Shown here one piece after another: positions 5,051 to 37,344 of a DNA stretch of 64,000 nt. This DNA comes from Methanoplanus endosymbiosus. Lineage in GTDB: Archaea > Halobacteriota > Methanomicrobia > Methanomicrobiales > Methanomicrobiaceae. The translations under genes were made by a program, and so were the position numbers. Each line of letters begins with the position of its first letter. Positions within the stretch are counted from its first letter, which is position 1. The stretch is from contig NZ_CP096115.1 of NCBI RefSeq assembly GCF_024662215.1, positions 2,356,001 through 2,420,000 of the forward strand. The letters run 5' to 3'. The notes under the pieces are model-generated. The model was not told where the DNA came from. It saw nothing but the letters and a program-made list of their open reading frames with translations, and ran no database searches.

Positions 5051-6819
5051 CCTGGATTCCCGCCCACTCATAACGATGTGGGTGGTGTCACCCCCAGGTC
5101 CCGGTACAGCTGCTCCTGTTTATCGAGTATCTCACCCACTCTGAGAGATTTTCCTGGTTGTTCAAAACACTCGATGACATCCAGTTTGTCCAACATACCA
5201 GGCAATGTGTAATTCCTGAAAAGGTTATGATCCTGCATCTGCTTTTTGAGATAAGATAAGTAGATCAGTGCCACAAACTGCACAAACAGTTTCCCATCAA
5301 GGCTCTGTTCTGAAGAAACGAGTGTACGGCGCATATTCAGGCGTTCTTTGAGATTTCCAAAGGCCTTTTCAACCACATCTTTGTTGCGGTAGAGTTCAAG
5401 AGCAGTTACTGCATCCATCTTTTCATTAGTAATCAGAGCAAAAAACCCAAAATATCGCTTGGCTTTGATGACATTTTCATCAATAATCTGTGCCTTTGTT
5501 CCTCTCTTGGGTGTTGTTTTGGTAATGAAGTACTGCTTGTAAAGTTTAGCGTGTCCTGGAACACGCTCTCCTGACTCCAGTTCCTTTTTTAGTGCGATTA
5601 GCTTTCGGTCGAAGTTTTTCTCATCTTCGGCTGCCTGGTCAATATTGTAGAAATAGTGGATGTAAAGACGGCGTGATTCCTGAAGAGTATCTCCTTTGTA
5701 AGGACGCTCTTTTGTATAATTCCAGGTGGTCCGGACAGTCTGGTAATACAGTTCGTAATTCTCACTGTAACGTTCAAAGCTCCTAAAAGTGTCATAGACT
5801 GCATCAAGTTCTCCATAGACAAATTTCAGAGACATTCTGACACCTGCAAGGAACTTCACGTGATTCTTAAACAGGTTGTTGATATTGACCTCACTGTAAA
5901 AGCCCCGGTCAAGAACCAGTTTAACTCTTGAGTGATCAAGAATATCCAGCTCTTCAAGCAGGCGTGTAATGGTCTTTGAATCCGGGATATTACCTGCGAG
6001 TTTTCTGTAATAGAAAGGGAGATTGGACTCCTGTCCAAAGACCAGAGCAAGATTCAGCTGTGCCAGTTTGTCGTGCTCCTTGTTGCGACCATACTGTACC
6101 TGCCTGAGGGTTTCTGAATAGCTGGACAGAGATGTTGTATCATAAGCCCAGAATTCATTATCCATCCTTCTCTTTCCCTGAAGTCTGAAGAACTGTAGTT
6201 TATTTGCCTCGGTAATGCTGGAAAACAGTTCACTACTGCGTTGTGAGGTGATGTCTTTGCCATAAGGATGCTTATGCAGGAGTCCCCACTTCTCAAAACG
6301 GTATAGCGGAGTGCTGTCTTCAAGGATTAAATAGTACACAACGGATAAGATTTGCTCATATGTGTCGGGGAAACACTGTTTCAGATCCTGAATGAGACCT
6401 AATTTCTCACCAATAGCATCCAGTAGATATGTGGCTCCGTAGAATGAACGATGTGCTTCCTCAACCCTCTTTGTATTACGTTTCACAGGCGGATTACCTT
6501 CTTTTTTCTTCCTGTTGCGTCCATCGGTGGGGACTATTTTACCTGTCTCTTTGTCTACACGCCCAATAAGGGTACGTTTGGCACGTGACTGTTTCTTTTC
6601 CTTGTCCCAGTATGATACAGAGCGGTAAGCATAGGTTATCCCGGATCTTTTGTCTGTTTGGTGAACTATTGCGACCATGTAAACACCTAATCGTTATGTG
6701 TGTTATTTAACACATAACGATTATAAAACTATCGGTTTGATCTTGGGGAGTATTTTGGAATATTAAGAAAAATGTGGAGTTAGATTTCAGAGTGGGTTAT
6801 GTGTTTCCGGGAATGCAGG
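5051..6819 (-). mobile_element. IS1634-like insertion sequence inside a glycosyltransferase gene
   Basis: The element is about 1769 bp. Its ends are imperfect inverted repeats: CCTGGATTCCCG at 5051-5062 and the complement of CCTGCATTCCCG at 6808-6819 (11 of 12 match). It is flanked by a direct repeat TTATAA (5045-5050 and 6820-6825, possibly GTTATAA). It encodes one transposase on the minus strand. A 14-bp perfect inverted repeat (6688-6701 with 6710-6723, 8-nt loop) lies just upstream of the transposase start and may be a transposase-binding or translation-limiting structure. The intact ends, clean duplication and full-length transposase suggest a recent insertion. Confidence 0.88.
5068..6678 (-). 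CDS. IS1634/IS4-type DDE transposase
   Basis: A 536-residue protein with a basic N-terminus (SYWDKEKKQSRAKRTLIGRV) and the features of IS1634-group transposases: an EFWAYDTTSLSSYS segment with the first Asp, VKLVLDRGFYSE with the second Asp, and a C-terminal Y...KDVVEKAFGNLKERL block containing the catalytic Glu. It catalyses cut-and-paste movement of the surrounding element. It is full length with no internal stop, so it may be active. Confidence 0.88.
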   Translation of the reverse strand: MVAIVHQTDKRSGITYAYRSVSYWDKEKKQSRAKRTLIGRVDKETGKIVPTDGRNRKKKEGNPPVKRNTKRVEEAHRSFYGATYLLDAIGEKLGLIQDLKQCFPDTYEQILSVVYYLILEDSTPLYRFEKWGLLHKHPYGKDITSQRSSELFSSITEANKLQFFRLQGKRRMDNEFWAYDTTSLSSYSETLRQVQYGRNKEHDKLAQLNLALVFGQESNLPFYYRKLAGNIPDSKTITRLLEELDILDHSRVKLVLDRGFYSEVNINNLFKNHVKFLAGVRMSLKFVYGELDAVYDTFRSFERYSENYELYYQTVRTTWNYTKERPYKGDTLQESRRLYIHYFYNIDQAAEDEKNFDRKLIALKKELESGERVPGHAKLYKQYFITKTTPKRGTKAQIIDENVIKAKRYFGFFALITNEKMDAVTALELYRNKDVVEKAFGNLKERLNMRRTLVSSEQSLDGKLFVQFVALIYLSYLKKQMQDHNLFRNYTLPGMLDKLDVIECFEQPGKSLRVGEILDKQEQLYRDLGVTPPTSL

Positions 6820-6825
6820 TTATAA

Positions 6826-7616
6826 AGGCCTGGAAGATCTGCATATGGAATATAGTCGGTAAAGATAATAGATTTATGCAGATTTTTCTTTTGAATATAT
6901 TCAAATATTTCCTTATATTTCCAACCTTTCTTACCGACTATAACCAACTTGTAATTAATATTCTTATTAATTATAATTTCGAATGCTTTTATGAGAGCAA
7001 ATATATTTTTTCTTGGTTCAAGAGTGCCCACGTAAAGAATAAATGGATAATTTAGGTTATATTTATCTGCAATTGTCTGTTTATCCTCTTTATTTAATGG
7101 TTTAAAAATGCTATCAGCAGCTTCATAAATGACTGTGATTTTATCTTCTGGTAGATTAAAATATTTGATAAGTTCATATTTTGTATGTTTTGAAACTGCA
7201 ATTATCTTATCTGCTGTCTTTAGTGTTTTAGGGAATAAGACCTTATGAAGGAGAACACGACTCATAGTATGGGTTTCCGGGTTAGTAAATACAGAGATGT
7301 CATGAACCGTGAGAATATACTTTTGTTTAAATTTGAAAAATGTGGGGGTCTGTGTAGGATTATGTACAATATCAATGTCAGATTTTCTGATTTTTCTTGT
7401 AACATAGGGGTACCAGGAATAAGTTTTTACTATGGGAAAGTAATTTGGAATAATTAAATCCTGAAATGGAGGAAAGGCAGTTTTATTGTGGTTTATAAGG
7501 TATATGCTGTCTTTTTTTGGTACAACATTCTTCAGGTCATTAATCAGATTTTTTGTGTAATTACCTATTCCGGTTGATGGTGTATTTAAAGTCTCTGCAA
7601 TGATGCCTATTTTCAT
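6826..7616 (-). pseudogene. GT4 glycosyltransferase, N-terminal fragment (split by IS)
   Basis: This is the 5' part of the split gene. It starts MKIGIIAETLNTPSTGIGNY (typical GT4 N-terminal strand and loop) and includes VHDISVFTNPE, TADKIIAVSKHTKYEL, and YVGTLEPRKNI at the start of the donor-binding domain. The frame runs through YADLPGLYN and then enters the insertion element, where it reads about 12 foreign codons to a stop. The restored protein would be 368 residues, normal for a family 4 retaining glycosyltransferase. As it stands the donor-binding Glu pair is lost and the protein should be inactive. Confidence 0.9.
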
Positions 7617-7663
7617 ATTAATATCCTGGTATGTTTACTGTCTAAAAGTATTGTGATTGAAAG

Positions 7664-8680
7664 CTACAATAATTTCTGATAAATTAATTTGTACTCCATT
7701 GCCATTTTATCCAGAGTAAACTTTTTAGTAATACAATTTTGGTTGTATTCAGACATATCTTCCATAAGTTTCTCATCGTCAAAAATTGTTTTGATTTTTG
7801 ATACAAAATCATCAATATTGTCCATTTCGCAAAGAAAACCCCCTTTTCCATCGACAATCAGCTCAGGCAAAGCTGAACCATTGGTAGTAATCACTGGTTT
7901 ACCACAGGCCATTGCTTCAGCTACAGTAAGTCCAAATCCCTCGAGACGTGAAGGGAAAATAAGAGCGTCACAAAAATTGTATAAGATAACAAGTTTCTCC
8001 AAGCTGACTTTTCCAACGCAGATTATTTTTTTATTTCCGGAAAATAATCCTTCACGCAGTCCGGCGGTCATTAAAAGAACATAAGAGTCATCAAGACGAT
8101 CCATTATCTTAGGCAACAGGTCTGCACCTTTCCTGTTACTTGGATTTCCGGCAAACAACAACACTTTCTCATTTCCTCTAAGTCCCAGCTGTTTATAGAA
8201 GGCTTCACGATTAATTTCAATCGGTCTGAAAATATTTTGATCTACACCATTATAGATGACCTGTGCATCAGAATACCCAAAAGTCTTCTCAAGCATTTTT
8301 TTTGTATATTCGCTGACACATGTTACTTTGTCCGCTGCATTGAGGCTTATTTTTTCATATTTATAAATTAATTTGTGAAATCTCTTTTGTCTTGCCGTCT
8401 TCATTGGTTCAAATGATGGATCATGAACAACATGGTGCTCTGTTAAAACAAGAGGATTCTCTCCCTTAAAAGCAAAGCCGTTCCATGTATTGCCATGAAT
8501 AATTGTTCCGTAATCCTCTTTTTTATTTGTAAACCTAGCAAGATATGGCAGGTATCCAACATAATCAGGAAAGTATGAGAGATTTGTTTCTATGCCTTGT
8601 CTTTTTAATTCAGATGCAAGTGATTCTGTCCATACATCAACTCCGGAATAACCCCTGACCTGCTTAAAGACAACTTTCAT
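7664..8680 (-). CDS. Family 4 glycosyltransferase
   Basis: A 338-residue GT-B glycosyltransferase. N-terminal acceptor domain: GYSGVDVWTESLASELKRQG, TEHHVVHDP. Linker: AADKVTCVSEYTKKML and VIYNGVDQNIFRP. C-terminal donor domain: LLFAGNPSNRKGADLLPKI and the E-x7-E motif in SRLEGFGLTVAEAMACGKPV. It would retain the anomeric configuration of an NDP-sugar. Its start overlaps the stop of the gene at 8677-9960 by 4 nt (ATGA), so the two are co-translated. Confidence 0.88.
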   Translation of the reverse strand: MKVVFKQVRGYSGVDVWTESLASELKRQGIETNLSYFPDYVGYLPYLARFTNKKEDYGTIIHGNTWNGFAFKGENPLVLTEHHVVHDPSFEPMKTARQKRFHKLIYKYEKISLNAADKVTCVSEYTKKMLEKTFGYSDAQVIYNGVDQNIFRPIEINREAFYKQLGLRGNEKVLLFAGNPSNRKGADLLPKIMDRLDDSYVLLMTAGLREGLFSGNKKIICVGKVSLEKLVILYNFCDALIFPSRLEGFGLTVAEAMACGKPVITTNGSALPELIVDGKGGFLCEMDNIDDFVSKIKTIFDDEKLMEDMSEYNQNCITKKFTLDKMAMEYKLIYQKLL

Positions 8681-9960
8681 GATTCAACCAGTTTTCTGTA
8701 TATTTCTTCATTCTTTTTTAGGATGATATCCCAGGAAAAGTTTTCCTTAACGGTAGTATATCCATTTGTAATAAACTTCTCTCTAAGTTCATTATTATCA
8801 AGGATAATTTTTATCTTCCCTGCAATAGCTTCCGGATCTTTTTCCGGAACTAAAAAACCATTCCGGCCGTCTTTGATAATATCCGGAATTCCTCCGACAT
8901 TGCTCCCAATAACAGGAGTTTTACAGGCCATGGCCTCCAGGAGAACAACTCCAAGACCTTCGGTCTGCCCATTCAGGTTAACTGAAGGAAGCACAAAAAC
9001 ATCTGAGAATTTATAATATTCAATTGCTAATTCATGAGATATGAAGCCTTTAAATACAACTTTTTCTGATAATTTAAGTTTCTGCACTAATTGTTCAAGT
9101 CTTTCTTTTTCAGGCCCTATTCCTGCAATAATTATAATTATTTCTGGGAAGGCTTTGGTTAAATATATTATAGACTGGATTAAATATTCGGTACCTTTTA
9201 AGCCAATCAGCCGACCAATACTTAGTATAACTGGTTTAGAACCCTTTGGCAAATAACTTAAATCATTATACTCTGAATATTGTTGAATATTTTCCCTGTG
9301 AATCAGAATATTTTTTTTGTCATTCTGGATATTTTCTATATTGGGATCAAATTTTGTCAAATCAACGCCCATCGGAATGATTTTGCATTTGCTCTCTGCT
9401 TGGGGGCATATTGACAATAATTTTTCTTTAGTATAACTGCTGTTTGCAATTACTATATCTGAATATTTTACAATAAATCCGGCAACCTTAATCAGGAATT
9501 TTGATTTTGATATTGTATTTATATCACTTCCATGAATATTTGCAACATGCTTAACTCCAATTAATTTTTTGCATATAGCACCTGCAAGACCCTGGGGGAG
9601 AAGCCAATGGGTGTGGATAATCTGTATTTTTTTATCCTTGCATAATTTCAGGGCAGATAATACTTCAGATATTAAAAATAAAGGAACCTGTATCTTTGCG
9701 AGATGATCTGTATGAAAATTCCCTGCAATTCCGGAGCCATATGCAAGTCTCTGCAATGATGGAATGAAATATCTGAACCTGTGAATTTCAACCCCGTCAA
9801 AAAAATCAATTCTTCTGCATTTATGGCAATGGGGTGTAAGTGAATATATAGTATATTGATCTTTATCAAGCCTTTTTGGAATTTCATGCAAAAACCAGCC
9901 CATGGTTTCATTATGAACTCTGGGATAATTGCTTGAAATAATCAATATTTTAATTGTCAT
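8677..9960 (-). CDS. Family 4 glycosyltransferase
   Basis: A 427-residue GT4 enzyme. It has IQIIHTHWLLPQGLAG and NIHGSDINT in the acceptor domain, PMGVDLTKFDPN at the hinge, then ILSIGRLIGLKGTEYLIQS and EGLGVVLLEAMACKTPVIGS with the E-x7-E donor site. It is the first gene of a minus-strand transcription unit running 9960 to 4735. The ~245 bp upstream is AT-rich and probably holds divergent promoters for this unit and the ATP-grasp gene. The sugar specificity is unknown. Confidence 0.88.
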   Translation of the reverse strand: MTIKILIISSNYPRVHNETMGWFLHEIPKRLDKDQYTIYSLTPHCHKCRRIDFFDGVEIHRFRYFIPSLQRLAYGSGIAGNFHTDHLAKIQVPLFLISEVLSALKLCKDKKIQIIHTHWLLPQGLAGAICKKLIGVKHVANIHGSDINTISKSKFLIKVAGFIVKYSDIVIANSSYTKEKLLSICPQAESKCKIIPMGVDLTKFDPNIENIQNDKKNILIHRENIQQYSEYNDLSYLPKGSKPVILSIGRLIGLKGTEYLIQSIIYLTKAFPEIIIIIAGIGPEKERLEQLVQKLKLSEKVVFKGFISHELAIEYYKFSDVFVLPSVNLNGQTEGLGVVLLEAMACKTPVIGSNVGGIPDIIKDGRNGFLVPEKDPEAIAGKIKIILDNNELREKFITNGYTTVKENFSWDIILKKNEEIYRKLVES

Positions 9961-10205: not shown

Positions 10206-11354
10206 GTGACTGCCCTGATTACATCTTCAAACAGTTTAAAGGCTCTTACAGTTATCCGGAGTTTAGGAAAAAAAGGAGTAAATGTAATGTCGGCTGAAAA
10301 AAAGAGCGGTTCCCTTGGTTCTTATTCCAAATACTCCGGGAATAATATTACTTATCCTGATCCTGCTATTAAAGAACAGGATTTTGTAAAGAAGTTAATA
10401 TCTGAATTGAAAAAAAATCATATTGATGTTTTGCTCCCAGTTCATTCGGAAGATACTTATGTAGTTACAAAATATCTCGATAAATTCCGTGAGCATACAG
10501 CTGTTCCTTTTATGGATTATAAGACCATTGATTCCGTAAATAATAAGAGTATTTTCTTAAAAAATGCGTATGATATGGGATTTCCTGTTCCGAAAACTTA
10601 TCATCCTGATGATTTAGAATCATTGAGGAAAATTTCCAAAGAGATTGATTATCCGGCTGTAATAAAACTCAGAAAATCGTCAAGCAGTATTGGTTTGTCG
10701 TATGCTAAAAGTCCTGAAGAATTAATACAAACATTTAAAGATACAATTACTAAATTTAATCTGAATAATAAGAATTATCCAATTATTCAGGAATATGTCA
10801 AAGGAGATGGCTATGGGGTATCACTTCTATTCAACCATGGTGATCTACGCGCTTTTTTTACCCATAAAAGATTAAGAGAATATCCAATTTCCGGAGGACC
10901 CAGTACCTGTCGAGTAAGCGTCAGAAACTCTGGGATGGAGAAAATTGCAGTTGATCTGCTCAAAAGCTATAACTGGCATGGTATAGCCATGGTTGAATTT
11001 AAACTAACAGAGGAGGGTAAGCCCGTTATAATGGAAGTAAATCCAAGATTCTGGGGTTCAGTAAATCAGGCAGTATTATCCGGAGTAGATTTTCCTTATC
11101 TGTTATATAGGATGTCAGTAGATGGAGATGTAAATCCAGTAATGAGTTATAAAACAGGAATTAAAACCAGAAATGCATTTATTGATATAATTGCCATCTT
11201 CCAGGAAATAAAGAGTACAAAAAATCCTGCCTTAATTAAAGAGTTTTTGACCTGCCCCTTCACTGATGATGTTTTGTCTCTGGATGATCCAATGCCTACA
11301 CTAAACTTTATCAAAATGGGCTTAAAAGAGTTATATTGTAGCAGATATCATTAG
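10206..11354 (+). CDS. ATP-grasp carboxylate-amine/thiol ligase
   Basis: A 382-residue protein starting at GTG 10206. N-terminal pre-ATP-grasp Rossmann part: ALITSSNSLKALTVIRSLG and IDVLLPVHSEDTYVV. The ATP-grasp core follows: YPAVIKLRKSSSSIGLSYA, the IIQEYVKGDGYGVSLLF lid, and KPVIMEVNPRFWGS with the metal-binding E and N. Such enzymes join a carboxylate to an amine through an acyl-phosphate. The lone plus-strand gene lies between minus-strand glycan genes and its end overlaps the convergent PHP gene by 4 nt. An attractive role is acylating a sugar amine with an amino acid, but this is inference from context. Confidence 0.75.
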   Translation: MTALITSSNSLKALTVIRSLGKKGVNVMSAEKKSGSLGSYSKYSGNNITYPDPAIKEQDFVKKLISELKKNHIDVLLPVHSEDTYVVTKYLDKFREHTAVPFMDYKTIDSVNNKSIFLKNAYDMGFPVPKTYHPDDLESLRKISKEIDYPAVIKLRKSSSSIGLSYAKSPEELIQTFKDTITKFNLNNKNYPIIQEYVKGDGYGVSLLFNHGDLRAFFTHKRLREYPISGGPSTCRVSVRNSGMEKIAVDLLKSYNWHGIAMVEFKLTEEGKPVIMEVNPRFWGSVNQAVLSGVDFPYLLYRMSVDGDVNPVMSYKTGIKTRNAFIDIIAIFQEIKSTKNPALIKEFLTCPFTDDVLSLDDPMPTLNFIKMGLKELYCSRYH

Positions 11355-12013: not shown

Positions 12014-12808
12014 TTATGATTTCCTGGCAACTTTGATGCATTTTTTCCCGGAATTAAATACTGAATCAGTAACTTTTGAAATAAATAAACTTCTAATATT
12101 ATATGCCCATCTTTCAGGATGAACAGTTAAGTAAACATCTGAATCAAAATTATTTTGCAGGTATGAAATAAGATTGTCTGTGGATTTAAGCGAATCCTTA
12201 TTTCTGAATTCCTGATAAGTCCCTGATAAATTATCTCTCAATGAATTCCTGCCATTCCAGTTTCTTCCTGTATCTGAAAAGTACCTGACGTTAGATATTG
12301 ATAGATATGCATCTCCAATAACTCCATAATTCTTATAATCATACTTGTCCCAGAGATTCCGGTTATCATAAGGCGATAGGGGACTTCCGTGCATACAGAT
12401 TGTTTTGATATCGCATATCTCCCTGAAGGCATTCAGCTCTTCCTCAAATAATGTTATTGCTTTATTATAATCTCCTCTTGTTTTACTCAGGGTTTCATAA
12501 TGATATCCTACTTCATGACCAAGATTTTTAATTTTTATAATTTGATCTTTTTTGAATGTATAAGGGTATCTGAAATAATATGAAGAACGAATTCCCAGTT
12601 TGTGCTCGATATCTGCCATTTTAAGCGCACTTTTAACATTTCTGTCAACGTCATGTCTAAGAATACAGATTTTTTCGTCTGATAGTAAGTTTCTATTTTG
12701 GGAATTCTGATAATTTGTTACGTATTCAAAAAGAGTAATGATTGAATAATTCTTTTTTAAGGCCAAACATAGTTCACTATATTTTTTGAGGGTAAAATCA
12801 TGGGCCAT
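12014..12808 (-). CDS. Polysaccharide deacetylase-like (NodB/CE4-type) protein
   Basis: A 264-residue protein with the CE4-like pattern: ICILRHDVDR (catalytic/metal Asp with an adjacent His), YYFRYPYTFKKDQI, GHEVGYHYET (metal His) and ICMHGSPLSPYDNRN, ending with VYLTVHPERW. The RHDVD form is the variant found in polysaccharide-locus deacetylases. It would remove an N-acetyl group from a glycan or lipid-linked sugar. It has no signal peptide, so it probably acts in the cytoplasm before export. It abuts the PHP gene without a gap. Confidence 0.72.
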   Translation of the reverse strand: MAHDFTLKKYSELCLALKKNYSIITLFEYVTNYQNSQNRNLLSDEKICILRHDVDRNVKSALKMADIEHKLGIRSSYYFRYPYTFKKDQIIKIKNLGHEVGYHYETLSKTRGDYNKAITLFEEELNAFREICDIKTICMHGSPLSPYDNRNLWDKYDYKNYGVIGDAYLSISNVRYFSDTGRNWNGRNSLRDNLSGTYQEFRNKDSLKSTDNLISYLQNNFDSDVYLTVHPERWAYNIRSLFISKVTDSVFNSGKKCIKVARKS

Positions 12809-12861: not shown

Positions 12862-13815
12862 TTAGTACCATCCACCTGTTCTCTCCTGCTGCATGTCAAA
12901 AAGCATTGCAAAGAGAACAAACATCATTCCAAGCATGAATACAAGAAGCGCCAGACCACCATGAACAAAGAGTACATTATTCATAAGTATAAACTTTTCA
13001 TACAGGCTTACAAGTCCTCCAAGGAATCCAAGAATAGTAAATACAGAACCGAAGAAATAAAAGAATACCAGAGGATGAAAACTCATCAGAACATATTTAT
13101 TCTTCATCCTCCACAAAAATCCGGAGAAGAGTAGCCATGACACTTTTACAATGTAAGAACTGTATTTAATACCCGATTTTTCAAGCCCGTACCTCGCAGG
13201 ATGCGGTACATTGATCACCCTGAAACCAAAGACATTCAGTTTAATCAGAAGGTCATTGCAGTAGCCATATCTGGTATATATCTGTGAAAGTGGTATCGTC
13301 TCGAGCGCCCTCTTTGATATTGCAGTATAACCATTCTGTGGGTCCATCATCTGCCAGTATCCGGATGCAATCTTTGTCAGAAGTGTCAGTGTTGCATTCC
13401 CGGCAAACCTCCACCTGCTCATATTGGCCCTGAATTTTTCATTGATGAGCCTGTTTCCTACAGTATAATCTGCTCTCTCAGTTACGATTGGGTTTAATAA
13501 TTCCGGCAGAAATGTTGGATCCATCTGGTTGTCTCCGGCCATAACGGCAATAATGTCCATATCATCTGCAAGCGCGGCTTTATATCCGGTTATAATCGAA
13601 GCTCCCACTCCTGAATTGGTTTCGTGCCGGATGTTTAATATCCTTGAATCCTTTTGAGCACTCTCATCAATACACTCTGCTGTATTATCTGTAGAGCAGT
13701 CATCGACCACATAAATCCGGTCAACAAACTCCGGCATAGTTTCAAGCGTAGGGCCAATTAATAATTCCTCGTTGTATGCCGGAACAACAACTCCGATTTT
13801 TCTTTCTTTATACAT
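12862..13815 (-). CDS. Membrane-anchored family 2 glycosyltransferase (dolichyl-phosphate sugar synthase-like)
   Basis: A 317-residue protein. The GT-A domain covers residues 1-~225: IGVVVPAYNEELLIGPTLE, VVDDCSTDNTAE, SGVGASIITGYKAA, MAGDNQMDP (DXD-type metal site) and MDPQNGYTAISKRAL, the Q-N-G-Y-T box of DPM/DPG-synthase-like enzymes. Two C-terminal transmembrane segments follow (HPLVFFYFFGSVFTILGF and GGLALLVFMLGMMFVLFAM). It probably charges dolichyl phosphate or extends a lipid-linked glycan at the membrane. It has its own upstream spacer and looks monocistronic or first in the unit that continues to the deacetylase. Confidence 0.85.
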   Translation of the reverse strand: MYKERKIGVVVPAYNEELLIGPTLETMPEFVDRIYVVDDCSTDNTAECIDESAQKDSRILNIRHETNSGVGASIITGYKAALADDMDIIAVMAGDNQMDPTFLPELLNPIVTERADYTVGNRLINEKFRANMSRWRFAGNATLTLLTKIASGYWQMMDPQNGYTAISKRALETIPLSQIYTRYGYCNDLLIKLNVFGFRVINVPHPARYGLEKSGIKYSSYIVKVSWLLFSGFLWRMKNKYVLMSFHPLVFFYFFGSVFTILGFLGGLVSLYEKFILMNNVLFVHGGLALLVFMLGMMFVLFAMLFDMQQERTGGWY

Positions 13816-14607: not shown

Positions 14608-15204
14608 ATGTTAAAAATAAGAAATGATGAAGCATTTACCGGTCTTGAGGCCGCAATTGTGCTTATCGCATTCGTTGTCGTCGCCGCAGTATTCTCATAT
14701 GTAGTGCTCGGCGCCGGTTTCTTCACAACCCAGAAATCACAGGAAGTTGTGTATACGAGTGTCGATCAGGCAAGTTCAAGTATCGAGATAATGGGTGATG
14801 TGTATGGTATTTCAGAAACTACTGAAAAAGGTATAGATACCGTTCGTTTTACTGTAGGACTCACTGCTGGCGGTTCACCTGTTGATTTCTCAGATTCAAC
14901 TATGTCATTTACTACAAAGACGGAGGTCACAAGTCTTGGTAATCCCAGTAGTACAGTAAGTACAACACTGCCTACAGAAGAGGGTGATTGGAAAGTACTT
15001 ACTGTTAATAACCGTGACTCTGATAAAGATCCAAGTAGTTTGATGCTTGAAGGTAGGGAACAGTTTGTTCTTGGTATAAGGCTTCCTTCTAAAGTAACTG
15101 CAAATAATGACTTTATTCTCAGTATTCGTCCTGCTGTAGGTACTGCATATTCAATTGACAGAACTGTGCCTGAGAGGGTAAAAGCTGTTAATGCTCTTTA
15201 TTAA
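14608..15204 (+). CDS. flaB: Archaellin (major archaellum filament protein) 1
   Basis: A 198-residue pre-archaellin (ArlB family). The class III signal is MLKIRNDEAFTG, with expected FlaK/PibD cleavage after Gly-12. The hydrophobic assembly helix LEAAIVLIAFVVVAAVFSYV and the conserved GAGFFTTQKSQEVVY follow. The C-terminal beta domain is Thr/Ser-rich and ends VKAVNALY. The subunit polymerises into the archaellum filament outside the cell. GGAGG lies 7 nt upstream of ATG 14608; the longer frame from 14557 overlaps the leader hairpin and would mask the signal. The only N-x-S/T in the protein is NPS, which is not usable because of the proline. Confidence 0.95.
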   Translation: MLKIRNDEAFTGLEAAIVLIAFVVVAAVFSYVVLGAGFFTTQKSQEVVYTSVDQASSSIEIMGDVYGISETTEKGIDTVRFTVGLTAGGSPVDFSDSTMSFTTKTEVTSLGNPSSTVSTTLPTEEGDWKVLTVNNRDSDKDPSSLMLEGREQFVLGIRLPSKVTANNDFILSIRPAVGTAYSIDRTVPERVKAVNALY

Positions 15205-15215
15205 AGGTGATGTAA

Positions 15216-15860
15216 ATGATGAAAAAAATAATAAAATCAGATGAAGGTTTTACCGGTCTTGAGGCTGCAATTGTTCTGATTGCATTCGTCGTAGTCGCTG
15301 CAGTATTCTCATATGTGGTTCTCGGTGCTGGTTTCTTCACAACCCAGAAGTCACAGGAAGTTGTCTATTCCAGTGTTGATATGGCATCTTCAAGTATGGA
15401 AGTATTAGGTGATGTTTATGGAATATCTGCTGATACTTCAACGACTAATAAAAGGATAAATGCTGTTCAGTTTATTCTTGGTTTGACCGCAGGTGGTACT
15501 CCTGTAGATCTTGCGAAAACTACTCTTGTATTTCAGAATGACAGAACAATTAAAGATTTAACCAGGCTTGGTCAAATTACCAGTACTTCCACGAATGTTG
15601 TTAGTGATAAAAGTTCTATTACTGCACTTAAATGGGGTATTATTGAAATAAACAATGCAGATGGTGATGGTGGTGCATTACTCGAAAACCAGAAGCAGTT
15701 TACCATTTATGCTCACATTAGTGATGGTCATTCGTCTGAAGATGAGAGAATTGTAGCGAATGAAAATTTCAACCTTGAAATTAAACCATCTGTTGGAGCA
15801 TCATACGGAATTAAAAGGACTGCTCCGGCTGAAGTAAAAGCTGTAAATGTTCTTTATTAA
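15216..15860 (+). CDS. flaB: Archaellin 2
   Basis: A 214-residue archaellin whose leader MMKKIIKSDEGFTG and helix region match archaellin 1 exactly from FTGLEAAI through KSQEVVY, while the surface beta domain differs strongly. It lies 11 nt after archaellin 1 with AGGTGAT as ribosome site, so the two are co-transcribed. It ends VKAVNVLY. No N-x-S/T sequon is present. The near-identical helices and divergent outer domains are expected if both subunits share one filament core but expose different surfaces. Confidence 0.95.
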   Translation: MMKKIIKSDEGFTGLEAAIVLIAFVVVAAVFSYVVLGAGFFTTQKSQEVVYSSVDMASSSMEVLGDVYGISADTSTTNKRINAVQFILGLTAGGTPVDLAKTTLVFQNDRTIKDLTRLGQITSTSTNVVSDKSSITALKWGIIEINNADGDGGALLENQKQFTIYAHISDGHSSEDERIVANENFNLEIKPSVGASYGIKRTAPAEVKAVNVLY

Positions 15861-15905
15861 TCCTCTCAGGATTAATAAATAATAAATAACCAATTACTTT
15901 TTTTT
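15855..15905 (+). terminator. Hairpin plus T-run after the archaellin genes (terminator or attenuator)
   Basis: A perfect 10-bp stem (TATTAATCCT 15855-15864 with AGGATTAATA 15868-15877, 3-nt loop) overlaps the stop codon of archaellin 2. An eight-T run follows at 15898-15905. It probably ends or attenuates most archaellin transcripts before the less abundant motor genes. Confidence 0.6.
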
Positions 15906-15957
15906 AAAATTAAGTTTAATTTCTTAGTAGTTATCATTTCAATATTTAGAGGTATTT

Positions 15958-17961
15958 ATGTCAAAACGAAAATCAAAATTGGTTGTCGGAAATAATATTA
16001 ATCTATCTGAAAAGGATGTCAAGAAATTGGCTGATAATGTCAAAAAATTAGATGGTGATATGGGAGAATTGGATGTAAATACTAAAGTAAACAATTCTGA
16101 TAAAACGTTTTTTGGCAGAATCTCAGATTTTCTTAATCAGAATATTGTTGTAATTATTGTATTTTTCCTGTCACTTTTCTTCATTATGTCTTTTTCAAAT
16201 CCTGCTATTTTCATTAATGATGAATGGATTACAGTAAATCAGTTAAATCAGCTTGATGCAGGACAGCAGTTGATAGTGAATGAAGGAAAATATGGGACAT
16301 ATCTGAATGGAACTCCTGGGGCTTACTTTGATTCCAAAGATAACCTTCTTGGCTACACTTTAATGCTCCCAATCCTCTCCCTTCCGGCACTAAAACTCTT
16401 CAGCCTCTTTGGTGAACAATTCAGGTTTTTCATAGTTCTGCTCTGGAGTTTAATACCAATTGCAATGGTATTTCTGGTCGAGAAATACAGGCAAAAATGG
16501 CTCAGGGTAGGTGAACTGTCTCTAAAATGGCCGTTGATAATTACAGCATTTGCATTTATGCTCCTGAATATACTGCTCTATTATCCATTCAAATTTGGAA
16601 CGTGGGATTCACCGCAGGAAGTTGCGGCAGTTGTATTTACTAATCACATTTTCTTTGCACTTACAGCGGTGGCAATATTTCTCATCTGCCGATATATGTT
16701 TAAAAATGACTGGTACTCAGTATTTGGAACAATTGCCTGCATGTCCTGCTCATCATATATGTTCTGGGCAGCTAATTGCAAGGATCATATGATTACCATT
16801 GCATTCACAGCATTTGTTATACTCTTTATGGTTAGATATATAAAATCGGAAAAGGGAATAGATGCATTCTGTGCATTCTTCTTCATGGGTATGCTCGCCT
16901 GGGCACGCCCGGAGGTGGGTGCGGCGGTATTTGTGTTCTCGCTGATATACTATCTTGGATATAATCTCTACAAAAAAGAGAACCGCTCTGAATTCTTCAG
17001 GCTGAAGATATTTGCACCTATGTTCACAGTTCTCGGTGCAGTTCCGTTCTTCATAAATAATCTCTACGTCACCGGAAACCCGCTTGTACCGACTTTTTAC
17101 GTATATCTCCAGAAGCATCTCTCAGCAGTGGATGGCAATGGGAATGTAATCGGAAGCAATATTGTCAATAATGTTTCTTATTCAGTCCCGGCACCATCAG
17201 GTGGAATTGACAGTTTTGTAAATATCGTCCAGAATCAGATGGGATTTCAGGTTAATACAATTGTCTATGATATATTTGGAGTTCTTCTAAGGCCTGAATC
17301 CGGCAACGTCGGTGTTGGTATTGTCTGCCCGCTTCTGTTTATTGGGATTGTGATTCTTCCGGTGTTATACTTCAGGAATAAGTCCATATTCTCAGATACG
17401 GACATATCGCTCATAATATTCCTCCTTTTTGCAGTAGCGGCAATATGGGCAGCCTACTTCAATCAGATATATGGCATGAATCACAGCCACGGTGTAATCC
17501 CGGACATCCGTTACATGACTCCGGCATACATCCCAATGGGACTTCTTGGTATATTTGGTGTATTTTCGGTTTTCCACAAAAACAGAAATACTGAAACTAT
17601 CAATGAGAGGAAAACTGCTCTTACAATGATTACATCTGCCCTTACCATAGTTCCGGCTATAATCCTTGCAATGATTTTCATCCAGCCATATGGCGGAGCG
17701 TATGCAGGATATACTACCTTCTTCATGCAGCTTGTCTATCTTATGGTGGTCGTAACCATAATTGTCTTCATCCTGGTGGAATTAAAAAAGATATCAGTGA
17801 ACTGGTTTATTGTATCAGTAGTACTGCTCGTATCAATTCCTCTTGCGTGGCAGTTTGTGATGCTCTTTTTATATTCAACCGTAAAATTCAATGGATATTC
17901 ATTCTGGATCCCGTTTGTGGAAAATCTCTATGACAACTTTATCATTGTCCATGATGTTTAA
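15958..17961 (+). CDS. Multi-spanning GT-C-like membrane glycosyltransferase in the archaellum operon
   Basis: A 667-residue protein. The cytosolic N-terminus (residues 1-~60) is charged and lysine-rich. About ten or more hydrophobic segments follow. After the first membrane helix (about 62-80) the outer loop contains N-D-E-W (D88/E89), the position of the catalytic acidic pair in GT-C enzymes of the PMT/ArnT type. WARPEVGAAVF and NNLYVTGNPLVPTF resemble other GT-C signatures. The AglB motif WWDxG is absent, so this is not the N-oligosaccharyltransferase. It sits 97 nt behind archaellin 2 with AGAGGT as ribosome site, suggesting it modifies archaellins or S-layer protein from a lipid-linked sugar. 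The function is inferred. Confidence 0.6.
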   Translation: MSKRKSKLVVGNNINLSEKDVKKLADNVKKLDGDMGELDVNTKVNNSDKTFFGRISDFLNQNIVVIIVFFLSLFFIMSFSNPAIFINDEWITVNQLNQLDAGQQLIVNEGKYGTYLNGTPGAYFDSKDNLLGYTLMLPILSLPALKLFSLFGEQFRFFIVLLWSLIPIAMVFLVEKYRQKWLRVGELSLKWPLIITAFAFMLLNILLYYPFKFGTWDSPQEVAAVVFTNHIFFALTAVAIFLICRYMFKNDWYSVFGTIACMSCSSYMFWAANCKDHMITIAFTAFVILFMVRYIKSEKGIDAFCAFFFMGMLAWARPEVGAAVFVFSLIYYLGYNLYKKENRSEFFRLKIFAPMFTVLGAVPFFINNLYVTGNPLVPTFYVYLQKHLSAVDGNGNVIGSNIVNNVSYSVPAPSGGIDSFVNIVQNQMGFQVNTIVYDIFGVLLRPESGNVGVGIVCPLLFIGIVILPVLYFRNKSIFSDTDISLIIFLLFAVAAIWAAYFNQIYGMNHSHGVIPDIRYMTPAYIPMGLLGIFGVFSVFHKNRNTETINERKTALTMITSALTIVPAIILAMIFIQPYGGAYAGYTTFFMQLVYLMVVVTIIVFILVELKKISVNWFIVSVVLLVSIPLAWQFVMLFLYSTVKFNGYSFWIPFVENLYDNFIIVHDV

Positions 17962-18228: not shown

Positions 18229-19041
18229 ATGGCAGTTAACCAGTCGCAGGTAGATCACATTCTAAACACAGCCTCGGCGGATGATCCTGAAGTAAAACTA
18301 CAAAATCTCCAGGATGAGGTTGACCTCCTTAAAAAATCTGTAAAGAAGTTATTAATAGATTTAAGAGAGAGAATGAACGAGCTTGACAACCCCTTCATTC
18401 TCAGCAATTACTCTCAGAGTGCAATAGAAAGCCCCCCAAGGCAGAACGAACTCCCGGCAGCAGAAGAGGAAATCCCGGAAGAGACCCTCCCGGCAATCCC
18501 TGGTGACGAATTAGTCAGTCCTGCCAGACTTCCGGATAAAAATCTTACAGATTCCCTCTCAGCATCACTAAAAGATGATGATCTCCTCGCGGCACTGCAC
18601 AGGCAGATAGATGACATTAAGCGGAATGCACCGGAAGTTTCAGAACAGGCAAAGGAGAAGCCGAAACTTCAGAAACTTCACGGAATATTTGAGTGGACTG
18701 CCCGCATGGTCAAAAAGTACGGCCATGACAGAATGGAAATAATGATGGAGTCGTACCGCTCAATGGGCTATGTCTCAGATGAATACTGTTCACAGATCAA
18801 AGACATTGCCCGCCTCATGCCGCAGTCAATAGGTGAATACCACGAGATCGGTTCTGAAGAATTTGTAGCCGAACTATACGTCTTAAACAGAATATTATAT
18901 CCTGATGATTCATCCCTTGACAGAGAGATGATAGATGTCATGATGGACAACAAGAGCATTGAAGATCTCGTGAAAACCAAAGGCCGGTCGAAGGAAGAGG
19001 CAATTGAAGAGGACTGGATTGATATGCTTGAAGAGATTTAA
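18229..19041 (+). CDS. flaCE: Archaellum protein FlaC/FlaD/FlaE-type fusion
   Basis: A 270-residue cytosolic protein. Residues ~20-55 form a coiled coil ending LLIDLRERMNELDNPF, the FlaC-like signature. A Pro/Glu-rich linker leads to the FlaD/E domain (about 155-255): LHGIFEWTARMVKKYGHDR, VSDEYCSQIKDIARLMP and ELYVLNRILYP. In Euryarchaeota these proteins form the cytosolic ring around the motor and receive the chemotaxis signal through CheF. A 267-bp spacer precedes the gene; CTTATATTATT near 18161 and AGCTTTAAACC near 18192 are possible TATA boxes, so the motor genes may have their own promoter. Confidence 0.85.
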   Translation: MAVNQSQVDHILNTASADDPEVKLQNLQDEVDLLKKSVKKLLIDLRERMNELDNPFILSNYSQSAIESPPRQNELPAAEEEIPEETLPAIPGDELVSPARLPDKNLTDSLSASLKDDDLLAALHRQIDDIKRNAPEVSEQAKEKPKLQKLHGIFEWTARMVKKYGHDRMEIMMESYRSMGYVSDEYCSQIKDIARLMPQSIGEYHEIGSEEFVAELYVLNRILYPDDSSLDREMIDVMMDNKSIEDLVKTKGRSKEEAIEEDWIDMLEEI

Positions 19042-19083: not shown

Positions 19084-19584
19084 ATGTCAAGCGAAACCTT
19101 TGCCACTGCAATATTTCTGATAACAGCAATAGTAGCTGCGGCAGTGCTTGTCAATGCATTCTTTCCGGTAATCTATCAGGCAACATCAACATTCAGTGAC
19201 TCCTCACAGTCGGCAGATGAACGTATGCGAACCGAAATTAAGATAATCAATACATTTGGCGTAAATCCGACCGCTAAAATCTGGATAAAAAATATCGGTT
19301 CTGCAAGAGTGGCCAAATCAAACCTTGATATGTCAGATGTGTTTTTTGGAGAGGAGGGTGATTATGATATCCTCATATTTAATTCGGACGGAACACCTGC
19401 CGATGGTGAATGGAGCTATTCAGTTATCGAAACAACAGAGAACAACTACTGGGACCAGAGGGAAACCCTGGAAATAGAGATCAATTCTGCTTCAATTCCT
19501 GCCGGTGAAGGCAATTATCTCTACTTTCAGCTGGCCCTTCCAAACGGTGTAACAGTCTCCCGGACATATACCACCAGCGGGTAG
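19084..19584 (+). CDS. flaG: Archaellum stator protein FlaG (ArlG)-like
   Basis: A 166-residue protein with one N-terminal transmembrane helix (about residues 6-30, TAIFLITAIVAAAVLVNAFF) followed by an extracellular beta-sandwich domain with IKNIGSARV. FlaF and FlaG form a complex that anchors the rotating motor to the S-layer. The assignment to FlaG rather than FlaF rests on the order in related operons and the RMRTEIKIINTFG stretch; the two families are similar, so the names could be reversed. It is followed after 6 nt by a micro-ORF with a duplicated start region. Confidence 0.7.
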   Translation: MSSETFATAIFLITAIVAAAVLVNAFFPVIYQATSTFSDSSQSADERMRTEIKIINTFGVNPTAKIWIKNIGSARVAKSNLDMSDVFFGEEGDYDILIFNSDGTPADGEWSYSVIETTENNYWDQRETLEIEINSASIPAGEGNYLYFQLALPNGVTVSRTYTTSG

Positions 19585-19662: not shown

Positions 19663-20127
19663 ATGGCAAGCGCTTCACTTATTGCAACTGCATTTGCTCT
19701 GATAATGCTGATAATTACTGCCTATTTCCTTGTAGGAGTAGTGCTTACCACAGCCCAGATCGTATCATATGCCCAGACAGATCAGGTGAACCAGCAGGAA
19801 TTACGGCTGAGGACATCACTCTCAATAAATTCAGCCAATATTTCGGAAGGAAATCTCACAATGGAGATTGAAAATACCGGCAGCACAATAATTGAAGATT
19901 TTGATTACATTGACATGTACACAGTCAATTCAAGTACAAACCCTCCAATATACTACTCCATGGGCGCGGGCAGCTGGAGTATTGTCACCATAAATCCGGA
20001 TATAATCAACCCCGGCCTTCTTGACCCGGATGAAGTGATGCAGGTAAACATAACATACACCGGCGATGCTCCCATATGGGCAAAAATGGCAACGCCAAAC
20101 GGGATTTCAGTGTCAGCATACATATAA
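19663..20127 (+). CDS. flaF: Archaellum stator protein FlaF (ArlF)-like
   Basis: A 154-residue protein with one N-terminal membrane helix (IATAFALIMLIITAYFLVGVV) and an extracellular beta domain containing LTMEIENTGSTIIEDFDYID, the typical ArlF/ArlG sandwich pattern. With the protein at 19084 it should form the S-layer-contacting stator. It starts at ATG 19663. The stop lies 13 nt before the flaH start. FlaF/FlaG naming is tentative as explained for the upstream gene. Confidence 0.7.
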   Translation: MASASLIATAFALIMLIITAYFLVGVVLTTAQIVSYAQTDQVNQQELRLRTSLSINSANISEGNLTMEIENTGSTIIEDFDYIDMYTVNSSTNPPIYYSMGAGSWSIVTINPDIINPGLLDPDEVMQVNITYTGDAPIWAKMATPNGISVSAYI

Positions 20128-25517: not shown

Positions 25518-27240
25518 TTAAACTTAGACGATCATTAATATGTTTAAACCTACAATATTAAATTCAAAATACTCTCTTAAATTACCTAAATCGCAGTATT
25601 GGCCCTAAATTCTCCGTTTTTTTGCACCGAGGTCACAAGGCACGTTTTGTAAACCTATTTTGATTAACATCACTCATCCCCATTTAGGCCTCATTACATT
25701 CTTCCATTTCTCATCGAGATCAATCTGAAAAGAGTATCTTTGAATTGAAATTGTGTTGTTTCCAGTGAAAAAGTTACAAAATTATAGATAGCTACCGCTA
25801 AATCGGTCGCAGCTGCATATTCCGTTCATTGAGATGTCAGAATGTCAGCTTATAGCAATTTCATCAATCCTTAATATACGAAAATGAGTCATACTTTCTT
25901 CAAATATGATGGCAAGATAATGATTTAAGGGGAATTTGTCCCTGTATATTACTTTTGGTCCTCTCTGAATCTTTGCAAATCGCTTCCATTTTGTTAAAAC
26001 CCAAAAATTCTGAATTATGCATGCAATTAGATAATAAAAAAATCTCACCACATGATCCTTGGTGGATGTTCTTACTTTGAATTTATTATTAATGACATAT
26101 GTTGATTCAATGGCAAATCTATGCCTGTATCGCTCACTAATTGATTGTGGGGAAGTATTAATTTTGTACACAACAAAAGCACGATGAAGAGCACCTTTTT
26201 TACCCTTTTTACCTTTCATGTAAATGACACGATCAACAATTTTCACCTTACATTTTAGCTTATTCTTCGATTTGGCGTTTATAACATATTCAAATGATTT
26301 TGATTTCTTTCCCTTCAGCTGCCTTTTGAGTTCATCACTGTTCTTCTTAACAGGCACTATGTGAGGAATTTCAGATTCCTTAAGGTAACTGAAGATTTCA
26401 GCAGAGTAAAACTCACGGTCAAGCATCAGAGATTTGATCTTGAATCCATATCCATAAATTAAATCAACACAATTCTTTATTGCGGTGAGGTTAGTGGAAT
26501 CTCTAAACAAAGGAATAACCTGAAGTATAAGGTGCTTATCCATATTTACAACCGAGAATGTCAGGTATCCAACAAAATAATTTGTCGATGCCTTTCTTTT
26601 TCCACCTACAATTGGAGATTTAGGATTTTTTTTATCCTTTTTCCCATAATATGGAATTAGCGTTATATCAATTGCAAAATCATACTTCTGACCTTTCTTA
26701 AGGATTCCTTTTCCCGCTTTTAAAAGCATTTTTGGAGTATTTAGTGTCAATTCCTCCATATTAAGGCCATGAAGTTTTTTTAGACAAGTCGTATGGGACG
26801 GTAGTCCTTCCGTCATTTTTGCAAAACCGGATATTGAGTTATTAGAACATGCCGTAGCGATAGCTCCCCGAATCAACGTTAGACTATCATAGTTTCTGCC
26901 ACCTGTTAAGGTTACATTCCCCTCAACAAGAGCGCATATCGGTTCAAGGTTTCCAAGCTTATTTTCTTTATTAAGCTCTGATTTGCCTATATTTTGACAA
27001 TTATTTGCCATATGAGGGGTTTTTGAGAGTATATAAACCCCACCATAAATCAGGCGTACGTCAAAAAAATAAGGTAAATTCGGGCTAAATTCTAAAAGAA
27101 TTTGGCGATATTGGGGTAAACGCGCAGTATTACGCGCAGTAGTCCATGTGGTTTGTCATTAAAATAGAGAAGTACTTAACTTTCTCAAGTTGGGCAGAAA
27201 TACTCTGAGCAAAAAATGGGGTTTTTCAGGAAATGTTTAA
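25518..27240 (-). mobile_element. ISH3-like insertion element (outer borders uncertain, possibly nested)
   Basis: The inserted DNA separates two halves of one gene and carries a transposase on the minus strand. The outermost signal is a perfect 12-bp inverted repeat, AGTACTTTAAAC at 25512-25523 and GTTTAAAGTACT at 27235-27246, whose outer AGTACT could be the target duplication. Inside it, CGCAGTATT occurs directly repeated at 25592-25600 and 27123-27131, so a ~1.5 kb element may sit inside a ~190-bp small repeat. Long non-coding arms (283 and 229 bp) flank the transposase gene. Simple removal at AGTACT does not restore the frame. Confidence 0.65.
25845..27011 (-). CDS. ISH3-family transposase
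   Basis: A 388-residue DDE transposase. The core includes DFAIDITLIPYYG (first Asp), IKSLMLDREFYSAEIF (second Asp) and a C-terminal RYRHRFAIESTYVINNKF with the catalytic Glu, followed by TSTKDHVVRFFYYLIACI, a hallmark of ISH3-like archaeal transposases. The gene is full length without internal stops. It is oriented opposite to the interrupted operon. The start is ATG 27011; TATATAAACC about 30 nt upstream is a plausible TATA box. Confidence 0.85.
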   Translation of the reverse strand: MANNCQNIGKSELNKENKLGNLEPICALVEGNVTLTGGRNYDSLTLIRGAIATACSNNSISGFAKMTEGLPSHTTCLKKLHGLNMEELTLNTPKMLLKAGKGILKKGQKYDFAIDITLIPYYGKKDKKNPKSPIVGGKRKASTNYFVGYLTFSVVNMDKHLILQVIPLFRDSTNLTAIKNCVDLIYGYGFKIKSLMLDREFYSAEIFSYLKESEIPHIVPVKKNSDELKRQLKGKKSKSFEYVINAKSKNKLKCKVKIVDRVIYMKGKKGKKGALHRAFVVYKINTSPQSISERYRHRFAIESTYVINNKFKVRTSTKDHVVRFFYYLIACIIQNFWVLTKWKRFAKIQRGPKVIYRDKFPLNHYLAIIFEESMTHFRILRIDEIAIS

Positions 27241-35279: not shown

Positions 35280-36761
35280 CTACCCGTTAGCGGGCGGCAG
35301 TGCAAAATAAGATAATTTAGTTTGGATCCATGGCGTTTGTCTTCTCATTCTCTCCTTTCTTTCGAGGAAATATTTCCTGTCAAGATAGGGATTAGCATTA
35401 AGCTTTGGGCAAGAATGTCTACGGATGGGAGCTTCCGAGAATTGTATTAACGTATTCTCTTCTGTTTTGAAAACCCATTTTCTTTTGCCTTCCACATGCC
35501 AATATTTACTTGCTACCCATTTGCGACCTTTGTTAGTGTGTCGACGTTTACCCCATTTCCAGGTTACTGTCCAGAGATAGTGATCTAATTTCTGGAAAGT
35601 TTCCTTGGCTGCATTATGACGATGATAATTTACCCAACCTCGTATGGTTGGATTTAATACCTTTATCAATTCCTCCTGAGACCATGCTCGGGCTTTTTTA
35701 ACTTTAGTCCTAATTTTATCAGTAATTGACTTGATTGATTTCTCCGATGGTTTAATGAGGAGTTTTCCTTTATATTTCCGGAAATTGTACCCCAAAAAGT
35801 CAAAGCCATTGTTGATATGAGTAATCAACGTTTTCTCTTCCGATAATTCCAGGCCTCTTATTGCGAGGAATTCTTTTATTATCTCCTTTGCTTCTTTTGC
35901 GATTTCCTCTGTAGGTGCAGTGACCAGAAAGTCATCTGCATAGCGAATAAAGTGAACTTTCATATTTTGGAATTGTTCATCAAGAATATGTTCAATTCCA
36001 TCGAGTGTCATATTCGCAAGAATTGGAGACACAAGGCCTCCTTGTGGAGTACCTTTATCTGTCGGAAAGAGAACATTATCAAAGACAAATCCCGATTTTA
36101 GGAACTGTGTAAGGATTGATTGATCCATAGGTATGTGTTCCTTAAGCCACACATGGTTAATATTATCAAAGCATCCCCGGATGTCTCCTTCCAGAATCCA
36201 TATGGATGATGTCTTTCTTCCTAAGCACGTAAATGCATATTCTGATGCATCCTGTGCTGATCTGAAAAGTCTAAATCCAAATGAACGTGGGTCTGCTGTT
36301 GTTTCTGCGATTGGTTGTAGGGCCAATCCATAGAGAGCCTGCATTGCCCGATCATACATGGATGGAATTGAGATTGGTCGCTTTGTTTTCTTACCAGGTT
36401 TAGGGATATAAATACGTCGTAATGGTTTTGCACAGTAATTTTTGTCTGTGAGGCTCAGAACTGCCTGCATCTTTGCAGATGCTGAGTTCCAGATTTCTCC
36501 GTCTATGCCGGGTGTACGCTTACCTTTGTTCTGTGTAACAATTCGTACAGCCAGCAATTTTGCTGATCTTGAATGAGTTAACAGGTAAGAAAGACGTTTC
36601 ACCAAATTCCAATTTTCTTCTTTTGTTGCCTTTGCAATCCGGATCTGTAGCCGGTTAACAGTGTCTCTTGTTTTGTCCCAGTCAATGGAGTTCCATTGCC
36701 GGGCAAGATCCCTGTCAGTATGTTTCTCGCAATTATGCGTCGTTGAATGACATACTTTCAT
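35280..36761 (-). CDS. ltrA: Group II intron reverse transcriptase/maturase, no HNH endonuclease
   Basis: About 493 residues. The RT domain contains GTPQGGLVSPILANM and the catalytic YADD in FIRYADDFLVTA. The maturase (X) domain follows: GFDFLGYNFRKY, KVKKARAWSQEELIKVLNP, RGWVNYHRHN. The C-terminus ends shortly after IRRHSCPKLNANPYLD, where an HNH endonuclease would normally start, so that domain is missing. It aids intron splicing and retrohoming. I prefer ATG 36761 because GGAAGG lies 7 nt upstream; an ATG at 36779 precedes that site. The protein has no internal stops. Confidence 0.92.
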   Translation of the reverse strand: MKVCHSTTHNCEKHTDRDLARQWNSIDWDKTRDTVNRLQIRIAKATKEENWNLVKRLSYLLTHSRSAKLLAVRIVTQNKGKRTPGIDGEIWNSASAKMQAVLSLTDKNYCAKPLRRIYIPKPGKKTKRPISIPSMYDRAMQALYGLALQPIAETTADPRSFGFRLFRSAQDASEYAFTCLGRKTSSIWILEGDIRGCFDNINHVWLKEHIPMDQSILTQFLKSGFVFDNVLFPTDKGTPQGGLVSPILANMTLDGIEHILDEQFQNMKVHFIRYADDFLVTAPTEEIAKEAKEIIKEFLAIRGLELSEEKTLITHINNGFDFLGYNFRKYKGKLLIKPSEKSIKSITDKIRTKVKKARAWSQEELIKVLNPTIRGWVNYHRHNAAKETFQKLDHYLWTVTWKWGKRRHTNKGRKWVASKYWHVEGKRKWVFKTEENTLIQFSEAPIRRHSCPKLNANPYLDRKYFLERKERMRRQTPWIQTKLSYFALPPANG

Positions 36762-37344
36762 AAGTTTACCTTCCTTCATTGCTTAGGAATACCTGTCCCA
36801 CGTCAGCACCCTTTCAGGTCGAGGCAACAACCCCTATCCTGCCCGTTACGGCAGGCCTTAGCTTTTTAGGACATCCTGTTCCGTCTATACCATTTGTCGG
36901 TCTCACGACTTCCATACCCAAATTGGGAGTATATACGGATTACCAAGTTCCATAACATAGATAATATAGATGCTTTAGGAGCCATCTTTAGGCCGGGAAC
37001 CATCTGTTCGTTTGTTATATTGTCAGCGTTTCCAACATAACCTGATTCCATACCATTTTGGTTCGGGCGTGTCAGTCTAAATACGCCTGTCTCAGTTTAC
37101 GACCCATACGATGATTCAGCGTTTGCTTCTCCATGGCATCCTTTCTCTGGCAGATTGATCAGGTTAGACTCCTGATTTTCTCCACGTTGTCCCACAGGCT
37201 TCACACAATTCCGTTACCAGAAATGCATGCTGCGGTAGAGATATCCCAAACGAAATGGATAGCTTTACGCAATCTATGTTACAGCTTTTCTTGTCGCACA
37301 CGCCTGAACTGAACACCTGTTCCGGTTAAGGCAGATTTACTGAA

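Follow-up and report, generated by a model that had tools for sequence, protein, structure and literature searches.

Relation to described GT-C glycosyltransferases

The described enzymes closest to the protein studied here are membrane glycosyltransferases of the GT-C (glycosyltransferase fold C) superfamily. Our subject is a 667-residue polytopic protein encoded beside two archaellin genes in a 64,000-nucleotide stretch of Methanoplanus endosymbiosus DNA (NZ_CP096115.1, positions 2,356,001 to 2,420,000), hereafter the window; the host genome, that of a Methanomicrobiales methanogen, is closed and 3.16 Mb in size. The best fold match is ArnT of Cupriavidus metallidurans (GT83, PDB 5f15), whose first periplasmic loop likewise holds an acidic site and which uses a polyprenyl-phosphate-sugar donor, as the 667-residue protein putatively does. 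However, ArnT acts on lipid A, the identity is 15% with no sequence-family match, and the archaeal protein differs from it in helix number and in its conserved motifs KDH, WARPE, NNxxxTGNPL and PDIRY. AglB/STT3 (GT66) shares the GT-C fold, an acidic site in an external loop and the 1-8-n helix plan, and acts on secreted proteins including archaellins, as we propose for the 667-residue protein. The latter, in contrast, lacks WWDxG, an STT3 or AglB_core match and the C-terminal globular domain, and its proposed acceptors are free of N-x-S/T sequons. PMT/POMT (GT39) shares the fold, a DE motif in loop 1 and an R...P motif in a late outer loop, as well as the Ser/Thr acceptor and polyprenyl-phosphate-sugar donor proposed here, whereas the 667-residue protein has neither a MIR domain nor a PMT Pfam match.

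Recent papers treat the pathway of O-glycosylation in archaea, or its transferase, as unknown; one of them describes the enzyme as a "currently elusive O-glycosyl transferase" (PMC11607397), and the same paper sets the O-glycosylated filament of Methanospirillum hungatei against filaments without O-glycans. For Sulfolobus acidocaldarius, PMC12488501 lists archaella as O-glycosylated while PMC11607397 has the O-glycan on the thread only, so the literature is inconsistent on the archaella of this species. In the open-licence literature we found no paper tying the present GT-C family to archaella and no earlier identification of an archaeal protein O-glycosyltransferase.

We propose that the 667-residue protein is an O-glycosyltransferase dedicated to archaellins, belongs to a new GT-C family and has replaced AglB on the filament, and we put the probability of this reading at roughly 0.7. 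A dedicated O-linking enzyme had been suggested by the first-pass annotation of this DNA, and the suggestion is supported by the GT-C fold, the linkage to archaellin genes, the loss of sequons that affects archaellins and spares ArlF and ArlG, the retention of AglB and the presence of a homologue in M. hungatei. The proposal offers a specific candidate gene family for the archaeal O-glycosyl transferase, together with a candidate donor synthase.

Predicted structure of the 667-residue protein

The gene lies 97 bp 3' of the second archaellin gene on the same strand, and the ArlD/E gene follows 267 bp further on, and after it the remaining archaellum operon. The protein has no Pfam match, including STT3, AglB_core, PMT and MIR, and a search of PDB chains by single sequence and by profile returned no GT-C match; fold comparison alone gave GT-C. 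It matches NCBIfam NF047440 (LA_3751/LA_3752 putative glycosyltransferase) at 1e-11, and all 26 members of family alignment A2 match part of this model (best 5e-13), but the score is 44.2 bits against a curated cut-off of 200, with about a third of the model covered. PMT_2 is matched weakly by 6 of the 26 relatives. Membership in GT66, GT39 or the NF047440 family is thus not supported.

An AlphaFold2 model built from a 26-sequence alignment reached a mean pLDDT (predicted local distance difference test) of 76.9 and a pTM (predicted template-modelling score) of 0.83. When it was compared with the PDB by Foldseek, as the first-pass annotation had advised, the top 20 matches were all GT-C enzymes, among them ArnT (E 2e-4), PglB, AftA, STT3/oligosaccharyltransferase (OST), Emb, DPY19 and Pmt4, with probabilities of 0.90–1.00. 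The TM-scores were low (0.21–0.38), and the match is therefore to the GT-C superfamily and not to one family. The earlier label "PMT/ArnT-like" describes the fold correctly but, as no Pfam family is matched, does not extend to membership in those families.

The hallmarks of GT-C enzymes are a DxD, DD or DE motif shortly after the first transmembrane helix (TM1), in the first outer loop, and an Rx4-14P motif in an outer loop of the C-terminal helix cluster (PMC6801728). Specifically, D88-E89 of the 667-residue protein lies directly past TM1 (helix 63–84) in the first external loop; among 27 homologues D88 does not vary and E89 is conserved in at least 90%. Helices 11 and 12 are joined by a loop with an Rx7P motif of invariant R518 and nearly invariant P526. 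WWD or WxDxG occurs nowhere in the protein. The DE motif, the missing WWDxG and the further GT-C-like motifs noted on first inspection are all borne out by these data. The model helices, read with the positive-inside rule, suggest 15 membrane helices in a 1-8-6 plan; this predicted topology and both motifs agree with the published hallmarks. The predicted outer face would carry the residues invariant in alignments A1/A2, namely D88, KDH275-277, R317xE319, N367, P515-D516-x-R518-Y519 and W650. Together, the top 20 Foldseek matches, all GT-C, and the motif positions support assignment of the modelled protein to the GT-C superfamily.

Conserved linkage to archaellin genes in Methanomicrobiales

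With an alignment as query, 56 of 199 Methanomicrobiales genomes yielded GT-C homologues; a single-protein scan of the genome contigs gave none. Counting the host, 27 genomes from four families have the GT-C gene no more than about 2.5 kb away from archaellin genes; they belong to Methanoculleus and relatives, Methanoregula, Methanospirillum and the host genus, plus a single genome from a further family. In an additional genome (G106), the GT-C gene lies at the end of one contig and the archaellins at the end of another. The linkage is found in both relative orientations, either within the archaellum operon or beside archaellins elsewhere. A separate GT-C clade, which is not near archaellins, consists of Methanofollis homologues and second copies in Methanoculleus.

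Several Methanoculleus loci (L056, L059 and those of genomes G060, G087, G105, G111 and G117) contain runs of C-terminal fragments (residues about 430–658) of the non-adjacent GT-C paralogue, extending over several kb with short open frames; they may be tandem copies that have decayed, or else form a cassette array. A homologue of 41% identity with archaeal-type neighbours was also found on a contig labelled as a Bacillus sp. metagenome-assembled genome (L069), which is probably a misbinned archaeal contig.

Sequon loss in archaellins accompanies the GT-C gene

Both archaellins of the locus carry a class III signal peptide and an Arch_flagellin domain. Neither contains an N-x-S/T sequon and archaellin 1 has one NPS, which confirms the earlier remark that no usable sequon is present. 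By shuffling of each globular domain, zero sequons would occur by chance with p = 0.18 for archaellin 1 and 0.11 for archaellin 2; taken singly, their absence is unremarkable, and significance arises only across relatives. The host genome encodes one AglB with WWDYG at another locus and hence has N-glycosylation capacity. Four more archaellin-like genes lie elsewhere in this genome (L003/L006 at C1:1308563-1309692, L004 and L005), two with sequons (one and two) and two without. Since AglB is present, ArlF has four sequons and two other archaellins have sequons, the lack is specific to particular filament subunits.

We then set 28 genomes that carry the linked gene against 44 that do not, expected sequon numbers being obtained by the same shuffling; the 44 were mostly those with the strongest archaellin matches plus a few others, chosen irrespective of sequons but not randomly. 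Where the linked gene is present, 51 of 61 archaellins are sequon-free, with 13 sequons observed against about 70 expected. Where it is absent, only 4 of 87 are sequon-free, with 205 sequons observed against 129 expected. The genome means differ with a Mann-Whitney p of 5e-11, uncorrected for ancestry, and the direction is the same in every family holding both states (f1, f4, f5 and f6). Sequons per archaellin, with versus without the gene, are 0 versus 1–4 in f1, mostly 0–1 versus 1–6 in the Methanoculleus family, 0 versus 1–4 in f5 except for genome G177, and 0–1 versus 1–5 in f6. The non-adjacent GT-C homologues show no such loss as a group (19 sequons observed, 18 expected), and the control proteins are not depleted (ArlF 2.5 sequons with the gene versus 1.7 without; ArlG 0.7 versus 0.5). 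An STT3-family gene (AglB) is kept in all gene-bearing genomes. Genomes with and without the gene, even inside Methanoculleus, thereby provide a natural comparison.

Several other accounts of the pattern were considered and rejected. Absence of AglB does not explain the sequon loss, because AglB occurs in the gene-bearing genomes and ArlF keeps its sequons; nor does a lower Asn content, for which within-protein shuffling controls. Ser/Thr enrichment fails as evidence because the groups are equal: the Thr/Ser richness pointed out in the first-pass annotation is real for archaellin 1, whose globular part is 25% Ser+Thr, but it is not a distinguishing feature. Ser/Thr columns conserved only in gene-bearing archaellins differ too little to name sites (reference position 61, 0.59 versus 0.35; position 161, 0.76 versus 0.50).

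The Methanospirillum hungatei homologue

M. hungatei combines a solved O-glycosylated filament with a GT-C homologue. The archaellin of PDB 5tfy is 100% identical to a gene of genome G155 over the 103 residues compared, and we therefore take G155 as M. hungatei. Six O-glycosylation sites, plus two N-modified residues, are reported for this archaellum (PMC5517150), and the archaellin contains no sequon. The GT-C homologue lies about 1.4 kb downstream of the 5tfy archaellin gene on the same strand, with a gene for a tetratricopeptide repeat (TPR) protein on the opposite strand between them, and it retains DEW, KDH, WARPE, PDMRY and NGYPFW. A third archaellin-like copy in this genome (L148, G155:C1:1412093-1412362) is interrupted by an in-frame TAG.

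Proposed mechanism and points that weigh against it

In the mechanism we propose, the family 2 glycosyltransferase (GT2) encoded upstream would make a polyprenyl-phosphate sugar, which would then be flipped, while the archaellin precursor would enter the membrane so that its globular domain faces the exterior. The GT-C enzyme, with D88-E89 as its external-loop site, would move the sugar from the polyprenyl-phosphate carrier onto Ser/Thr of the archaellin, which would then be processed and assembled. By standing in for AglB-type N-glycosylation on the filament, the enzyme would leave sequons unmaintained and apparently selected against. We infer the Ser/Thr linkage, the donor lipid, the identity of the sugar, the sites and the mono- or oligosaccharide form of the glycan. 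A relay from GT2 to GT-C may be the natural mechanism, since GT-C enzymes use polyprenyl-linked donors. Consistent with it, a close homologue of the GT2 occurs in 14 of 15 sampled genomes with a linked GT-C gene versus 5 of 17 without (p 3e-4), adjoining the GT-C gene in many Methanoculleus loci and lying 22–29 kb away in Methanospirillum.

We also favour, with somewhat less confidence, a broader proposal: that the family is an archaeal protein O-glycosyltransferase, that the archaella of Methanomicrobiales changed over more than once between N-glycosylation of the AglB type and O-glycosylation by this enzyme, sequons being purged where it is present, and that the O-glycans seen by cryo-electron microscopy (cryo-EM) in M. 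hungatei are its product. This suggests that a motility filament can exchange a whole glycosylation system in evolution.

Several observations weigh against the proposed mechanism. Among seven independent supported pairs on the archaellin tree, 3–5 are concordant, none is opposed and the rest (2–4) are ties, giving a sign test p of 0.06–0.25. One Methanoculleus genome (G050) has the gene yet carries 4 and 1 sequons in its archaellins, while G038 (L164/L223), a genome that lacks any GT-C homologue, has sequon-free archaellins and no evident substitute glycosyltransferase close to them; the Methanospirillum-like genome G177 likewise has sequon-free archaellins and lacks the GT-C gene. Ser+Thr content is not raised with the gene (18.4% versus 18.1% without, p = 0.39). 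Finally, literature O-glycan sites come from M. hungatei alone, whose homologue shares about 32% identity with the 667-residue protein and falls in its own Methanospirillum clade, so that strict orthology is not proven, and whose five STT3-family matches could also act on archaellin.

In G177 (L219, G177:C146, 8518-12115), an AglB-like gene of 800 residues with STT3 and AglB_core Pfam matches lies directly 3' of two sequon-free archaellins, as if the archaellin-side slot had been taken over by an OST paralogue.

Alternative explanations

The GT-C enzyme could instead work in glycan assembly, like ALG enzymes or AglS of Haloferax, adding a sugar to a glycan, linked to lipid or to protein, whose attachment to archaellin is the work of another enzyme. 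Several GT-C enzymes work in this way, GT4 genes lie upstream at 6780-9960 and STT3 paralogues are abundant in Methanospirillum; however, most archaellins of gene-bearing genomes are without the sequons that AglB would need, while the same genomes keep AglB and the ArlF sequons, and a further enzyme would be required for attachment. We therefore regard this explanation as unlikely.

Less probable again is that the archaellins are unglycosylated and the enzyme modifies another surface molecule, such as the S-layer or an exopolysaccharide, its position reflecting a shared island of surface genes. Glycan genes do surround the locus and a related clade is non-adjacent, but archaellin is the nearest common neighbour in 27 genomes despite varied surroundings and orientation, the non-adjacent homologues as a group are not accompanied by sequon loss, and M. 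hungatei archaella are reported as glycosylated.

Modification of archaellins at non-canonical Asn, by the GT-C enzyme or independently of it, appears slightly more doubtful still. The N-modified residues of the sequon-free M. hungatei archaellin and the AglB-like gene following the G177 archaellins speak for it; against it stand the six O-sites reported for the same structure, and a 667-residue protein with neither WWDxG nor an STT3 match. C-mannosylation of Trp can practically be dismissed: DPY19, which acts in this way, is among the fold matches, but each archaellin has a single Trp, which makes WxxW impossible.

Neighbouring genes

The features of the locus are listed in Table 1. Relatives of the polysaccharide-deacetylase-like gene adjoin the GT-C gene in four other loci (L040, L042, L130 and L133), and in L130 a relative of the ATP-grasp ligase with 48% identity does so as well.

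Table 1 Features of the archaellin locus and its surroundings (positions within the window)
Feature	Position	Strand	Evidence
ATP-grasp ligase, possible glycan-modifying gene of the island	10206-11354	+	Pfam PF02655, PF15632
Polysaccharide-deacetylase-like protein (name inferred), possible glycan-modifying gene of the island	12014-12808	-	No Pfam match above cut-off
GT2 resembling polyprenyl-phosphate-sugar synthases (AglJ-like), with two membrane helices at the C-terminus; proposed to make the donor	12862-13815	-	Pfam PF00535 2e-25; TIGR04182 AglJ 1e-17, below cut-off
Archaellin 1	14608-15204	+	198 aa from ATG; Pfam PF01917 (Arch_flagellin) 125 bits; class III signal peptide MLKIRNDEA/FTGLEA
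Archaellin 2	15216-15860	+	214 aa; Pfam PF01917 112 bits
667-aa polytopic GT-C glycosyltransferase, proposed archaellin O-glycosyltransferase	15958-17961	+	AlphaFold2, Foldseek, NCBIfam NF047440 below threshold, conservation
ArlD/E (FlaD/E) archaellum protein	18229-19041	+	Pfam PF04659
ArlG (FlaG) archaellum stator; control protein, no sequon	19084-19584	+	NCBIfam NF052591 9e-9, below cut-off
ArlF (FlaF); control protein, four sequons	19663-20127	+	Sequon count

A scan for sigma-70-type promoters gave hits at chance level, a promoter type that is uninformative for an archaeon. Upstream, a transposase-like open reading frame (ORF; 5068-6678) lies beside a truncated-looking 278-residue GT4 gene (6780-7616), and the glycan gene island there seems to have been hit by an insertion. 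Additionally, the chemotaxis genes 3' of the archaellum operon are flanked by a second transposase-like ORF (25845-27011) and a group II intron-type reverse transcriptase (35280-36779).

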